Source: Micromonospora sp. DSM 45708
GTDB lineage: Bacteria; Actinomycetota; Actinomycetes; Mycobacteriales; Micromonosporaceae
Assembly (NCBI RefSeq): GCF_039566955.1
Contig: NZ_CP154796.1
Span: 5,642,001 to 5,706,000, forward strand
Reading direction: 5' to 3'
Length of the DNA stretch: 64,000 bases
Shown in pieces: positions 6,211 through 9,007 of this stretch. Under the pieces are notes generated by a model. That model saw only the letters and a list, made by a program, of their open reading frames with translations, was not told the DNA's origin and made no database searches. The stretch's first letter is position 1; every line of letters begins with the position of its first letter. A program made the translations under genes and the position numbers.

Positions 6211-7428
6211 TCAGGCCGGCGGGAGCAGGCCGGCCGACCGGCTCGCGACCACGGCACCGATGAGGGTCAGCGCGTCCGCGCCGGCCATCGGGTCCAGCCC
6301 GCGCCCGTCGCGCAGGCGCAGCGACACCGCACCGTCGGCGGCCTCCCGGGCGCCGACCACCCCGACGTACGGGACGCGCCGGCGGGACGCGTCCCGGATG
6401 CGCGCACCGAGCGAGCCGCCGGCGTCGACCTCGACGCGCAGGCCGGCCGCCTCCGCCTCCCGGCCCAGCCGACGGGCCGCCCCGGCCTGCGCGTCGTCGA
6501 CCGGGAGCAGGAGCAACTGCACCGGGGCGTACCAGGCCGGGAACGCGCCCTGGTGCACCTCGATCAGGTACGCGAACAGCCGCTCCATGCTGCCGACGAG
6601 GCTGCGGTGCACCATCACCGGCCGTTTCCGGCGCCCGTCCGAGTCGGTGTACGACAGGTCGAACCGCTCCGGCTTGTCGAAGTCGAGTTGCACGGTGGAG
6701 ATGGTCGACTCCCGGCCGGCCGCGTCCATGATCTGGATGTCGATCTTCGGCCCGTAGAACGCGGCCTCGCCGGGCACCTCGACGGCGTCCACCCCGTCGA
6801 GCGCGGCGCGCAGCAGCTCCTCGGCCCGCGCCCAGCCGGCGTCGTCGCCGACGTACCGCTGCCCCGGCCCGCGCAGCGACAGGCGGAACCCGGCCGGCCG
6901 GACGCCGAGCGCGGCGTGCGCCTCGCCGATCAGCCGCAGGATCTCCCGGACCTCGTCGCCGACCTGCTCCAGCGCGCAGAAGTTGTGCGCGTCGTTCAGC
7001 GAGATGGCCCGCACCCGGGACAGCCCGCCGAGCACGCCGGAACGCTCTGCCCGATACATTCCGCCCAGCTCGGCGACCCGCAGCGGCAGCTCCCGGTAGG
7101 ACCGGCCGCGGGCGCGGAACACCAGCGCGTGGTGCGGGCAGAGCGCCGGGCGCAGCACGAACTCGTCGTCGGCGCTCAGGCGCATCGGCGGGAACATGTC
7201 GTCGGCGAAGAAGTCCAGGTGCCCGGACCGCTCGAACAACTCCCGTTTGCCCAGCGGCGGCGAGTAGACGTGCCGGTATCCGGCCCGGCGCTCCAGCTCC
7301 CGCACGTACTCCTCGACGGCGTGCCGGGCGGCGGCGCCGGCCGGCAGCCAGATCGGCAGGCCGGCGCCCGCGAGCGGATCGGAGACGAACAGCTCCAGGT
7401 CCCGGCCGAGCCTACGGTGGTCGATCAT
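6211..7428 (-). CDS. Short threonyl-tRNA synthetase paralogue lacking TGS and editing domains
   Basis: 405 residues, against about 640-690 for housekeeping ThrRS. It begins directly with the class II catalytic domain and ends with an HGTP anticodon-binding domain; the N-terminal TGS and editing domains are missing. The catalytic zinc ligands are present as Cys97 (LRPALCPHH), His148 (NDAHNFC) and His274 (MVHRSLVGSMERL); the spacings of 51 and 126 residues equal those of E. coli C334/H385/H511. Motif 2 reads ELGGMYRAERSGVLGGLSRV. The start ATG has aaggaga at ideal spacing. Upstream lies a Thr-rich leader peptide and hairpin. It probably charges tRNA-Thr under threonine limitation or inhibitor stress; resistance to a ThrRS inhibitor is an alternative. 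Confidence 0.9.
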   Translation of the reverse strand: MIDHRRLGRDLELFVSDPLAGAGLPIWLPAGAAARHAVEEYVRELERRAGYRHVYSPPLGKRELFERSGHLDFFADDMFPPMRLSADDEFVLRPALCPHHALVFRARGRSYRELPLRVAELGGMYRAERSGVLGGLSRVRAISLNDAHNFCALEQVGDEVREILRLIGEAHAALGVRPAGFRLSLRGPGQRYVGDDAGWARAEELLRAALDGVDAVEVPGEAAFYGPKIDIQIMDAAGRESTISTVQLDFDKPERFDLSYTDSDGRRKRPVMVHRSLVGSMERLFAYLIEVHQGAFPAWYAPVQLLLLPVDDAQAGAARRLGREAEAAGLRVEVDAGGSLGARIRDASRRRVPYVGVVGAREAADGAVSLRLRDGRGLDPMAGADALTLIGAVVASRSAGLLPPA

Positions 7429-7480
7429 GTCGCTCTCCTTGATCGGGTACGACCCGGAGGCGAGCTGGTCCGGAACGCCG

Positions 7481-7513
7481 CGAGGCCCCGGAGCGGATCG
7501 CCCCGGGGCCTCG
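7481..7513 (-). terminator. Attenuator hairpin upstream of thrS-like gene
   Basis: Perfect 11-bp inverted repeat (7503-7513 with 7481-7491, 11-base loop) in the leader, about 50 bases before the thrS-like ATG. The minus-strand RNA arms are cgaggccccgg and ccggggcctcg. The 5' arm plus the loop edge (ccgggg) can instead pair with ucccgg of an earlier hairpin (7538-7553), giving mutually exclusive terminator and antiterminator folds. Confidence 0.65.
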
Positions 7514-7525
7514 TCGACGGAAACG

Positions 7526-7579
7526 TCAGTGCGGCGCGCCGGGAACTCCCGGCGTCGTGGTCCTCACCGCGCTGCGCAT
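7526..7579 (-). CDS. Threonine-rich leader peptide of the thrS-like gene
   Basis: A 17-codon ORF, MRSAVRTTTPGVPGAPH, with three consecutive Thr codons (ACC ACG ACG at 7553-7561). Immediately after them comes a hairpin (7538-7553, gccggg/cccggc), then the stop, then the terminator-like hairpin at 7481-7513. This is the layout of ribosome-mediated attenuation: stalling at Thr codons would cover the first arm, free ucccgg to pair with the terminator's 5' arm and allow readthrough. No Shine-Dalgarno is visible. A weak -10 (TACGGT, 7591-7586) would put transcription start near the ATG, so the leader may be leaderless. Prediction only. Confidence 0.6.
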   Translation of the reverse strand: MRSAVRTTTPGVPGAPH

Positions 7580-7647
7580 GCGGTGACCGTACGGCCGGCC
7601 GACCGGACGGCGCGACCGCTTTTCCGGGCCGCGCCGCCGGTGGCGGG

Positions 7648-7926
7648 TCAGCGCTTCTCGCAGGCGACGCTGTCCTTGTCCCGGTCGAGGTGGGTGTTCT
7701 TCGCGTAGACGGTGTTGGACACGGTGAAGTTGGTGACCGGCTTGGTGGTGCCGCGCACCTTGTCCTTCGCGCCCTTCTTGCCGACGCCGTGCTTGTAGGT
7801 CTTGTTCAGCTCGGTGCAGTTCTTGTATGTCTTGGCCGCCGCCTCCGCCGGGGCGACCGCGACGGCCGTGCCGCCGCCGATCGCCAGGGTCAGAGCGAAC
7901 ACACCCCGGAGCAGGGTGGAAACCAT
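7648..7926 (-). CDS. Secreted Excalibur-domain protein
   Basis: 92 residues. A signal peptide (hydrophobic GVFALTLAIGGGTAVAVA, likely cleaved after AEA near residue 29) precedes an Excalibur-type domain: KNCTELNKTYKHGVGKKGA near the start and DRDKDSVACEKR at the end. The DxDxDxxxCE loop resembles a calcium-binding EF-hand-like loop closed by a disulphide between the two Cys. The aggagg ribosome site is strong. Such proteins are extracellular or cell-wall associated; the function of this one is unknown. Divergent from the DedA gene. Confidence 0.85.
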   Translation of the reverse strand: MVSTLLRGVFALTLAIGGGTAVAVAPAEAAAKTYKNCTELNKTYKHGVGKKGAKDKVRGTTKPVTNFTVSNTVYAKNTHLDRDKDSVACEKR

Positions 7927-8029
7927 GGAGCCTCCTGTGCGCGATTGCTGCTGCTAAGGCCCAAGATCGTATCGAGGGAGGGCGCTCAGGGAGGCGTGCT
8001 GTCGCAGGCCCGACAGCGAAGGCCGGGTG

Positions 8030-8062
8030 CGGGTCGCCGGCACGGGACCTGCCGGCGACCCG
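8030..8062. promoter_or_regulatory. 13-bp perfect inverted repeat in divergent intergenic region
   Basis: cgggtcgccggca (8030-8042) pairs exactly with 8050-8062 across a 7-base loop. It lies between two gene starts (Excalibur gene leftwards, DedA gene rightwards), so it is not at a gene end. It may be a leader hairpin for dedA or a regulator site. Confidence 0.5.
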
Positions 8063-8173
8063 CGGCGGCTCGGGCATCGGGAACGGGGGACCCGACGGCA
8101 CCGGTGCCGCGTCCCGTCAACGGTACGCCGGTGCGCTCGGATCCGCCGCCCCGCCCGATCCCCGGCGGCGGTC

Positions 8174-9007
8174 ATGGCTGACCTCATCGCCGGCGTCGCG
8201 TCGCCCATGTGGGCGTACGCGCTGCTGTTGACGCTGCTGGTCGCCGACGCCTTCGTTCCGGTGGTGCCGACCCAGATCGTCATGATCACCACCGGCGCGC
8301 TGACCGTCTACGGCGGGCTCAGCCTGCCGCTCACCATCGCGGTCGGCGCGGCCGGCGTCTTCGTCGGCGACCTGGCCTGCTACCTGCTCGGCCGCACCAC
8401 GCCGACCCGACGGGTGACCCGGGACGCGACGCCGGGGCGGGCCCGTCGGGCCGTCACCCGGGCCACCCGCCGGCTGCGCGAGCCCGGACCGCTGGTGATC
8501 CTGCTCTGCCGGTTCGTGCCCGGCGGCCGGATGGCGGCCTGTTTCTCGGCCGGCCGCAGCCGCTACCCGTACCGCCTCTTCCTGGGCTACGAGGCGGTGG
8601 CGGCCGTCGGCTGGGCCGGCTACGGCACGCTCGTCGGTCACCTGGGCGGTCGGGCGCTCACCCAGTCGGGCTGGCGGCTGCTGCTGATCGGCGGCCTGGC
8701 CGCGCTCGGGTTCGCGGCGGCCGGCTGGGTGATGACCTGGCTCAGCACCCGGCAGCCCCAGCCGGCCGGAGCGACACCACGAGCACGTGACCACAGCGGA
8801 GGAGAACCGATCATGAATGACGGGACGAACTGGCGCGACGTCGGGACGCAGGCCCGGCGACTCGATCCCACCTGGAACGACCCCGAGCGGGTGGCCCGGC
8901 GCCGGCAGCTCAGGAAGCAGATGCTGGCCGCGGTCGACGGTGCCCGGCCCGACCGGGCCGGCGAGGAGCCGGACCCGCCGGCCCGGGCCGAGGCTTCGAT
9001 CGACTAG
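8174..9007 (+). CDS. DedA/VTT-family membrane protein with in-frame C-terminal XRE-associated module
   Basis: 277 residues from ATG 8174. Residues 1-200 form a DedA domain: hydrophobic helices, FVGDLACYLLGR, and the characteristic RFVPGGRMAACF re-entrant motif. DedA proteins are lipid-flippase-like membrane proteins. No stop codon separates this domain from residues 214-277, a soluble module (NWRDVGTQARRLDPTWNDPE) that is a paralogue of the next gene's N-terminus. A strong ggaggagaa site and an ATG at 8813 lie inside the frame, so the module may also be made alone. The DedA domain would normally end near residue 200, so either a stop was lost or the fusion is real. Confidence 0.8.
   Translation: MADLIAGVASPMWAYALLLTLLVADAFVPVVPTQIVMITTGALTVYGGLSLPLTIAVGAAGVFVGDLACYLLGRTTPTRRVTRDATPGRARRAVTRATRRLREPGPLVILLCRFVPGGRMAACFSAGRSRYPYRLFLGYEAVAAVGWAGYGTLVGHLGGRALTQSGWRLLLIGGLAALGFAAAGWVMTWLSTRQPQPAGATPRARDHSGGEPIMNDGTNWRDVGTQARRLDPTWNDPERVARRRQLRKQMLAAVDGARPDRAGEEPDPPARAEASID
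8813..9007 (+). CDS. Nested in-frame small ORF, XRE-associated N-terminal module
   Basis: 64 residues starting at ATG 8813 behind ggaggagaa. It contains NWRDVGTQARRLDPTWNDPE and RVARRRQLRKQMLAAVDG, matching the first 45 residues of the gene at 9054. The charged tail has no HTH. It could be an independent product translated by internal initiation within the dedA frame. Which product is made cannot be decided from sequence. Confidence 0.45.
   Translation: MNDGTNWRDVGTQARRLDPTWNDPERVARRRQLRKQMLAAVDGARPDRAGEEPDPPARAEASID

Follow-up and report, generated by a model that had tools for sequence, protein, structure and literature searches.

A putative threonine attenuator upstream of a short threonyl-tRNA synthetase gene in Micromonospora and its relatives, possibly linked to the Shine-Dalgarno region by a helix relay

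Results

A Short Threonyl-tRNA Synthetase Paralogue and Its Surroundings

We analyzed a window of 64,000 nucleotides from Micromonospora sp. DSM 45708 (contig NZ_CP154796.1, positions 5,642,001 to 5,706,000); the features given with coordinates below all lie on its minus strand. The window holds a gene for a short paralogue of threonyl-tRNA synthetase (ThrRS) of 405 amino acids (thrS, 6211..7428), which scores 419 bits against TIGR00418 (cut-off 384), has Pfam matches to the catalytic and anticodon-binding domains and to no others, and can be aligned to solved ThrRS structures over their catalytic core. A second ThrRS match in the same genome lies in an open frame of 692 amino acids and is 41% identical to the 405-residue paralogue. 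The named loci whose thrS is 90–97% identical to that of the window are Micromonospora. Because 167 of 167 short ThrRS retain the Cys/His/His zinc ligands and the active-site Tyr-Gly, the paralogue should be an active enzyme without an editing domain (the roles of these residues follow the available text of PMC11252418 and PMC4787780 and, in part, general knowledge of the enzyme).

A candidate role as an inhibitor-resistant ThrRS of the ObaO type, in which Ser or Ala occupies the position of Gly463 of E. coli, was rejected, as all 167 short ThrRS have Gly at this position (its role in inhibitor resistance is taken from the accessible part of PMC11252418). The Leu489 position, which is K/Q in short and Q/L/H in full-length ThrRS, offers no clean resistance marker. 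In five Streptomycetaceae loci (L173, L177, L180, L187, and L251), the short ThrRS apparently carries a long, low-complexity N-terminal extension before the conserved DHR motif. Near thrS, 53 of 80 loci have a VTT gene, and the two ABC genes recur in 53 and 47 loci, respectively; the ABC genes of the window are convergent with thrS. A gene for a small Excalibur-domain protein (7651..7926) is directly upstream of the leader described below, an arrangement present in 7/80 loci only.

How common is the short paralogue, and on which loci do our counts rest? Within the genus, 82 of 101 genomes have a match at E values up to 1e-120; at up to 1e-118, such matches occur in 93/150 Micromonosporaceae and 106/200 Streptomycetaceae genomes. 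Across the phylum, ThrRS matches at 1e-105 were found in 23 of 396 genomes, part of them full-length enzymes. We used 30 loci from each of the sets of 82, 93, and 106 matching genomes and added 80 further upstream regions (40 of the 63 remaining places in Micromonosporaceae and 40 of the 77 in Streptomycetaceae). The 268 loci considered in all yielded 247 counted as orthologues and, once duplicates and regions shorter than 250 nt were dropped, 218 distinct upstream regions, 215 of which have a usable start.

Conserved Threonine Codons in the Leader

Between the Excalibur gene and thrS lies a leader open reading frame (ORF) of 17 codons (7526..7579), which, read from the sequence, encodes MRSAVRTTTPGVPGAPH followed by a stop and contains the putative regulatory Thr codons ACC ACG ACG in a row (7553..7561). 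An earlier sequence-only reading of the window had drawn attention to this ORF and its Thr run, and both are there. Are the codons conserved? In a protein-based scan of named genomes, a leader ORF in which two or more Thr codons follow one another lies in the 300 nt before the gene at all 80 short-thrS loci; these belong to Micromonospora, Plantactinospora, Salinispora, Catellatospora, Actinoplanes, Streptomyces, Kitasatospora, and one Streptosporangiaceae MAG. The residue after the run is Pro in 79 of them and Ser in L045. Runs of two or more Thr codons likewise mark the leader before short thrS in 218/218 distinct upstream regions. A strict T-T-P rule is met by 213 of these; L028 (TTTS), L117 (TTTTG), and L118 (TTTTTG) are variants, and L177 and L187 have the leader further upstream. 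Of the full-length thrS genes, none of the 13 testable loci has a Thr leader (15 loci, two without upstream sequence; the scan covered the 350 nt before the open frame and its first 90 nt, with 189 nt only for one locus). Because the leader accompanies 80/80 and 218/218 short thrS genes and 0/13 full-length ones, Thr-codon attenuation of the spare ThrRS is very likely.

The leader Thr codons are biased toward ACG, which makes up 580 of the 651 in the 218 leaders (a tally that includes L047, for which the wrong ORF was chosen) and still 364 of 434 when the last Thr codon, part of hairpin 1, is excluded. The Thr codons of four window genes comprise 22/96 ACG and 72/96 ACC. The isoacceptor reading ACG is perhaps the more sensitive one.

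What is conserved beyond the Thr codons? We compared the 77 leaders of equal length among 80 of Streptomycetaceae type (two of the 80 come from other families). The two codons after Thr-Thr-Thr-Pro vary freely, and others are nearly fixed: GTC in 74, CCG in 76, GCG in 71 with GTG in the remaining 6, CGC in 77, and TGA in 77. None of the exceptions is synonymous, and each of the six GCG-to-GTG changes replaces the amino acid and leaves a G-U pair in place. Because the fixed codons show no synonymous change, selection after the Thr codons is, as far as the alignment tells, on the leader RNA rather than on the leader peptide.

A covariance model of the leader (73 training rows, the window's own leader among them) has a single strong match in the genome of the window, namely the window leader itself (E = 3.6e-17); the next match has E = 3.6e-4. 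Seven of 19 weaker hits (L270–L276) were checked for a Thr-codon motif. One of them, L274, has such a motif at the match, but inside long overlapping open frames with no gene start after it, and we dismissed it as chance.

Promoter-Like Boxes at the Leader Start

A −10-like box, TACGGT (7586..7591), lies 6 nt before the leader ATG. A TANNNT box stands 6–7 nt before the in-frame leader start in 212/218 upstream regions and 4–10 nt before it in 217/218; the sole miss, L047, stems from the wrong ORF choice, and a TANNNT box is visible in its sequence. As a control, TANNNT occurs 4–10 nt before other ATG or GTG codons of the same regions in 16 of 3,688 cases. Since TANNNT sits only 6–7 nt before the leader start, we predict that the thrS leader mRNA is probably leaderless.

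Farther upstream, a WblC/WhiB7-like box, GAAAAG (7619..7624), ends 27 nt before the −10 box. The published WblC consensus, according to the available text of PMC7157823, is GAAAWY, 3 nt before −35, together with a TANNNT −10; the window box fits GAAAW and not the final Y. GAAAW is found 23–29 nt before the −10 box in 85/218 leaders vs. 0.35 per shuffled set, and the full GAAAWY occupies this position in 60/218. Judging by these boxes, WblC/WhiB7 may well act at the promoter in some members of the family. SCO3778 is presumably the short ThrRS paralogue. In the accessible part of PMC7157823, the WblC-activated synthetase genes include thrS2 of Streptomyces coelicolor, alaS2, and trpS; SCO3778 occurs once in this source, with no occurrence found in the main text. 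The part of PMC10771440 that we could consult describes SCO3778 as a threonyl-tRNA synthetase with a sigma-E site. As a side observation on the region 7624–7586 (minus strand), the published WblC-activated synthetases overlap, by gene name alone, with the S. lividans synthetase genes that have leader peptides.

Hairpin 1, the 2:3 Pairing, and the 15-bp Hairpin

Which RNA structures could the leader form? Hairpin 1 pairs 7554–7548 with 7543–7537. Its 5′ arm (segment 1, CGCCGGG, 7548..7554) begins inside the last Thr codon; segment 2 (7537..7544) is its 3′ arm plus one preceding base. The sequence-only reading was right about this hairpin, though not about its limits, which it had put at 7538–7553. 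It had also noted that UCCCGG of hairpin 1 could pair with CCGGGG of a larger hairpin downstream, and the two stretches (7544–7539 in segment 2 and 7506–7501 in segment 3) are indeed complementary. Counted without a shuffled control, segments 2 and 3 can form 5 bp or more, with G-U pairs accepted, in 215/218 leaders; the commonest form of this 2:3 helix (73/218) is extended by a GUC in the hairpin-1 loop to GUCCCGG:CCGGGGC. The leader stop codon falls 3–11 nt after segment 2 in 203/218. Hairpin 1 itself is present and nearly invariant, with compensated changes in L028 and L220, and in alignment A1 (73 of 119 representatives) it has one double-change cell and one slid version that scores higher. 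The 1:2 and 2:3 pairings hardly vary, and covariation neither supports nor counts against them.

The larger hairpin (3:4) is formed by segment 3 (7499..7513) and segment 4 (7481..7495), with 7513–7499 pairing with 7495–7481, and ends 52 nt before the thrS ATG (7428). The span of 7481–7513 and the distance of about 50 bases given by the earlier reading both hold, whereas the stem is longer than its 11 bp, namely 15 bp with one G-U. The 166-nt leader region folds at −95.7 kcal/mol (z = −4.97), a value reached by 0/200 shuffles. In 59 Streptomycetaceae-type representatives, 98.7% of the 3:4 cells are paired and 8 are changed on both sides, with 0/500 shuffles as good on all measures. An alignment of orthologous leaders, proposed at the outset as a check on the attenuator, thus gives conserved Thr codons and a covarying 3:4 stem, along with 1:2 and 2:3 pairings that are too invariant to judge.

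A U-tract after the 3:4 hairpin is absent from the window sequence. When T's that pair within the stem are left aside, T-runs of at least four occur over the 12 nt that follow it in 3/218 leaders, and runs of at least three in 14/218; thus, few relatives have the runs of four to five, and in L097 four T's belong to the stem end itself. In actinobacteria, terminators frequently have no U-tract, and termination at 3:4 is still compatible with its absence. Each arm of the 15-bp hairpin (7513–7481, minus strand) also contains a near-palindrome (CCCCGGGG / CTCCGGGG), so that either arm can pair with both arms of hairpin 1.

A Helix between the Hairpin Loop and the Anti-Shine-Dalgarno Strand

Between the 3:4 hairpin and the thrS Shine-Dalgarno (SD) region sits element 5, a candidate anti-SD strand (GCUCGCCUCC, 7456..7465) identified from the window fold and from relatives. 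It is complementary to element 3L (GGGGCGAUC, 7496..7504), which consists of the loop of the 3:4 hairpin and the adjoining stem bases at the end of segment 3. Read by hand, the window 3L:5 helix joins 7504–7498 and 7463–7457 (7 bp, one G-U); an automatic helix search gives 8 bp, in a register other than the one drawn by hand. Helices of at least 7 bp are available in 132/185 leaders vs. 15–25% after shuffling.

Does this helix covary? In the 59 Streptomycetaceae-type representatives, 95.5% of the 3L:5 cells are paired, 19 are changed on both sides, and the covariation score is 0.266, none of which is reached in 500 shuffles (0/500 each). Five of the 8 pairs are changed on both sides (1/500 shuffles), the number of pair types is reached by 14/500, and slid versions are 38–58% paired; the structures for these 59 rows were drawn from row L112, which favors them over slid versions. 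When partners were permuted (185 of 215 leaders, with a stem of at least 8 and a loop of at most 6), 0/2,000 permutations were as good among 71 Streptomycetaceae and 0/5,000 among Micromonosporaceae of other genera (n = 55, z = 8.2). L091, named Micromonospora but 70% identical, was grouped with the other genera in the partner permutations. Within Micromonospora and Salinispora (n = 55), 1,508/5,000 were as good and there is no covariation support; the sequences there lack useful variation. Full compensations in single lineages (L106/L241, L160/L235, L171, L090/L093, and L117) are the safer evidence, because shuffles ignore relatedness. In 19/71 Streptomycetaceae and 15/110 Micromonosporaceae (for example, L102, L114, L115, L182, L230, L248, L265, L266, and L268; L098, L198, and L203), a leader's own partner scores no higher than the average for relatives whose loop differs.

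A Predicted Hairpin over the Shine-Dalgarno Region

Element 5 has a second candidate partner. In the predicted window fold, element 6, the SD region (GGAGAGCGA, 7430..7438), is paired with 7463–7456, A7434 being bulged and the SD GGAG paired; in relatives, element 5 pairs with the SD and with bases up to the thrS start codon. In the 59 Streptomycetaceae-type representatives, 80.2% of the 5:6 cells are paired and 26 are changed on both sides (both 0/500 shuffles), slid versions are 39–50% paired, and two measures are unexceptional, namely the number of changed pairs (51/500) and the pair types (63/500). Partner permutation (197 of 215 leaders with a usable start) gave 0/2,000 for 62 Streptomycetaceae and 0/5,000 for Micromonosporaceae of other genera (n = 59, z = −6.4); for Micromonospora and Salinispora (n = 72), 2,240/5,000 were as good, so covariation lends no support there. 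A leader's own 5:6 is no better than that of relatives in 11/62 Streptomycetaceae and 42/131 Micromonosporaceae. Covariation thus points to a hairpin over the thrS SD in the family, and in the window it is a predicted fold. Neither for 3:4 nor for 3L:5 and 5:6 does the covariation come from inside Micromonospora; it lies in the relatives.

Pairing of the SD by plain folding is not distinctive, at 100/135 vs. 59% shuffled in Micromonosporaceae and 71/76 vs. 82% shuffled in Streptomycetaceae, and the segment of the window that follows the hairpin is not unusually stable (z = −0.95). In equilibrium folding of 135 Micromonosporaceae leaders, SD exposure is 0.386 with the ribosome at the stop vs. 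0.388 with it stalled and 3:4 penalized; among 76 Streptomycetaceae, exposure rises by more than 0.2 in six and falls in one. Because equilibrium folding does not release the SD, the switch would need cotranscriptional kinetics, operating while the RNA is being made.

Discussion

A Possible Helix Relay

How might these elements act together? We somewhat favor a leaderless, ribosome-mediated threonine attenuator of the auxiliary ThrRS in which a helix relay would control, at least partly, the initiation of translation. With enough Thr-tRNA, the leader ribosome would reach the stop codon and cover segment 2, whereupon hairpin 3:4 would close and hide 3L in its loop; element 5 would then pair with the SD region (5:6) and keep thrS off, and some transcripts may also end at 3:4. 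When Thr-tRNA is short or ThrRS inhibited, the ribosome would stall on the Thr codons and cover segment 1, segment 2 would pair with segment 3, and 3:4 would be unable to close. The freed 3L could capture element 5 as it emerges, leaving the SD open for synthesis of thrS. We infer the role of the enzyme, this stalling, the 2:3 step, and the order of events, in which the off state would combine 3:4 with 5:6 and the on state 2:3 with 3L:5, since element 5 cannot hold 3L and element 6 together. More tentatively, and at somewhat less than even odds in our judgment, 3:4 would be a relay rather than a terminator: its loop strand would stand in for the thrS SD region, capturing the anti-SD strand only once a stall has opened the hairpin, so that three helices would connect the leader to initiation. 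Such a relay would explain why RNA beyond the supposed terminator covaries with the terminator loop, and the scarcity of U-tracts fits it better than a plain terminator.

Alternative Readings

The simplest alternative is transcription attenuation of the trp type alone, with 3:4 as an intrinsic terminator, 2:3 as the antiterminator, and the downstream helices incidental. Much of the leader fits it: the four-segment anatomy with the Thr codons abutting segment 1, the placement of the stop codon, the 2:3 complementarity, and the T-runs after the stem in those few relatives, to which the four T's in the stem end of L097 may be added. Yet the window has no U-tract and few relatives have one, the loop of a terminator should not covary with later RNA as 3L does with element 5, and the SD hairpin 5:6 covaries too; we consider this reading rather unlikely, though it deserves to be kept in mind. 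The terminator of the sequence-only reading fares accordingly: the attenuation anatomy and the logic of a threonine attenuator before a second ThrRS gene agree with the conservation of the Thr codons, with hairpin 1 and the 15-bp hairpin, and with the complementarity of segments 2 and 3, whereas a purely intrinsic terminator is doubtful, given T-runs in 3/218 and a loop that covaries with a later element facing the SD. The missing U-tract, the promoter-like box upstream, and the predicted SD-sequestering hairpin downstream go beyond what that reading contained.

The position of 3L in the loop of 3:4 also raises the thought that both helices form together as a pseudoknot, a fixed fold or regulator-binding site of the kind proposed for the leuA LEU element, with the Thr codons acting only weakly. 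For actinobacterial leuA, a leader with amino-acid codons, a pseudoknot, and SD pairing has been proposed, and its codon mutations behaved unlike attenuation (PMC1262725, from the text available). However, 3L:5 uses bases of the 3:4 stem, whose top pairs would have to open, the SD would stay free if the pseudoknot formed in the replete state, and the Thr run is kept in 218/218 leaders, which makes this reading improbable to us. That the paralogue serves mainly under zinc limitation, with the leader secondary, has a precedent in the zinc-regulated second ThrRS of Anabaena, T2 (PMC4787780, as far as its accessible text goes); our data hold no strong counterpoint, in that the three zinc ligands are kept in 167/167 short ThrRS but Anabaena T2 has them too, and we regard it as a distant prospect. 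Hardly credible at all is a leader without any regulatory function, be it an ORF arisen by chance or one encoding a conserved small peptide: the leader peptides end alike within families in the 80-locus scan, but conservation after the Thr codons is of nucleotides rather than amino acids, the helices covary, and a promoter-like box stands at the leader start. As for a T-box, a search of 6800–8200 against Rfam at E values up to 10 gave no T-box or Thr-leader match; the matches were P13, weev_FSE, mir-431, and AS1890, none at the gathering score.

Relation to Known Systems

Leader-mediated control of spare synthetases and of SD access has several precedents. In Bacillus subtilis, thrZ is a spare ThrRS gene induced by uncharged tRNA-Thr via a T-box; it shares with the present system the spare ThrRS and the tRNA-Thr charging signal, and differs in that the T-box senses tRNA directly, with no leader peptide. 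In ermC-type attenuators, an antibiotic stalls the leader ribosome and the SD is freed by helix exchange; the stalling and the helix exchange correspond to the proposed mechanism, whereas the signal is an antibiotic rather than an aminoacyl-tRNA and there is no terminator-like relay hairpin. Vecchione and Sello are said to have described, in 2010, ribosome-mediated attenuation of S. coelicolor trpRS1, an auxiliary TrpRS, which likewise combines a spare synthetase, a cognate-codon leader, and a shortage of charged tRNA as the signal, for tryptophan instead of threonine. That auxiliary TrpRS confers indolmycin resistance, as cited in the available text of PMC9437257. The mycobacterial polycysteine leaderless short ORFs of Canestrari 2020 (as cited in the accessible parts of PMC9031893 and PMC13236596) resemble the thrS leader in being leaderless ORFs with a run of a single amino acid and downstream control in an actinobacterium, and differ in using cysteine. 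The leuA LEU element (PMC1262725, available text) has a cognate-codon leader, alternative helices, and SD pairing as well; there, however, the Leu codons themselves pair with the SD, and the authors argued against classical attenuation. In the portion of PMC1262725 that was accessible, this 2005 survey found no threonine leader.

The sequence-only reading knew of no described case for a ThrRS paralogue, but a threonine leader before a thrS is in print: thrL before thrS of Streptomyces lividans TK24 (SLIV_19412/19410) is given as a predicted threonine attenuator in the available text of PMC8079986. Its leader MKRVRPFLETTPGFVPAR, its leaderless start, and its single hairpin without a U-rich stretch agree with our locus, and the thrL peptide resembles the Streptomyces leaders of our set; the accessible description makes no mention of a paralogue, SD sequestration, or a relay helix. 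SLIV_19410 would be the short paralogue, because full-length thrS is without a leader. Among the matches listed in a literature search, mostly of open papers, none dealt with a sequestered SD or a relay helix upstream of thrS. Attenuators of this kind are thus known, and one relative has a predicted example, while the relay architecture, its spread, and the promoter setting look new, with the TANNNT box at the leader start, the SD hairpin 5:6, the 3L:5 helix, and the WblC/WhiB7-like box as the new elements.

Implications

The WblC list in the available text of PMC7157823, set beside the S. lividans leaders alaL, thrL, and trpL2 in that of PMC8079986, suggests by analogy that spare synthetases may share a design in which a stress promoter is combined with a cognate-codon leader. 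If the relay holds, a shortage of one charged tRNA would switch on a spare synthetase through successive RNA helices, with control exerted on translation, either alone or alongside control of transcription, and the leader would be a natural Thr-tRNA sensor. It would also give a likely role to a ThrRS without an editing domain that is matched in 93/150 Micromonosporaceae and 106/200 Streptomycetaceae genomes.
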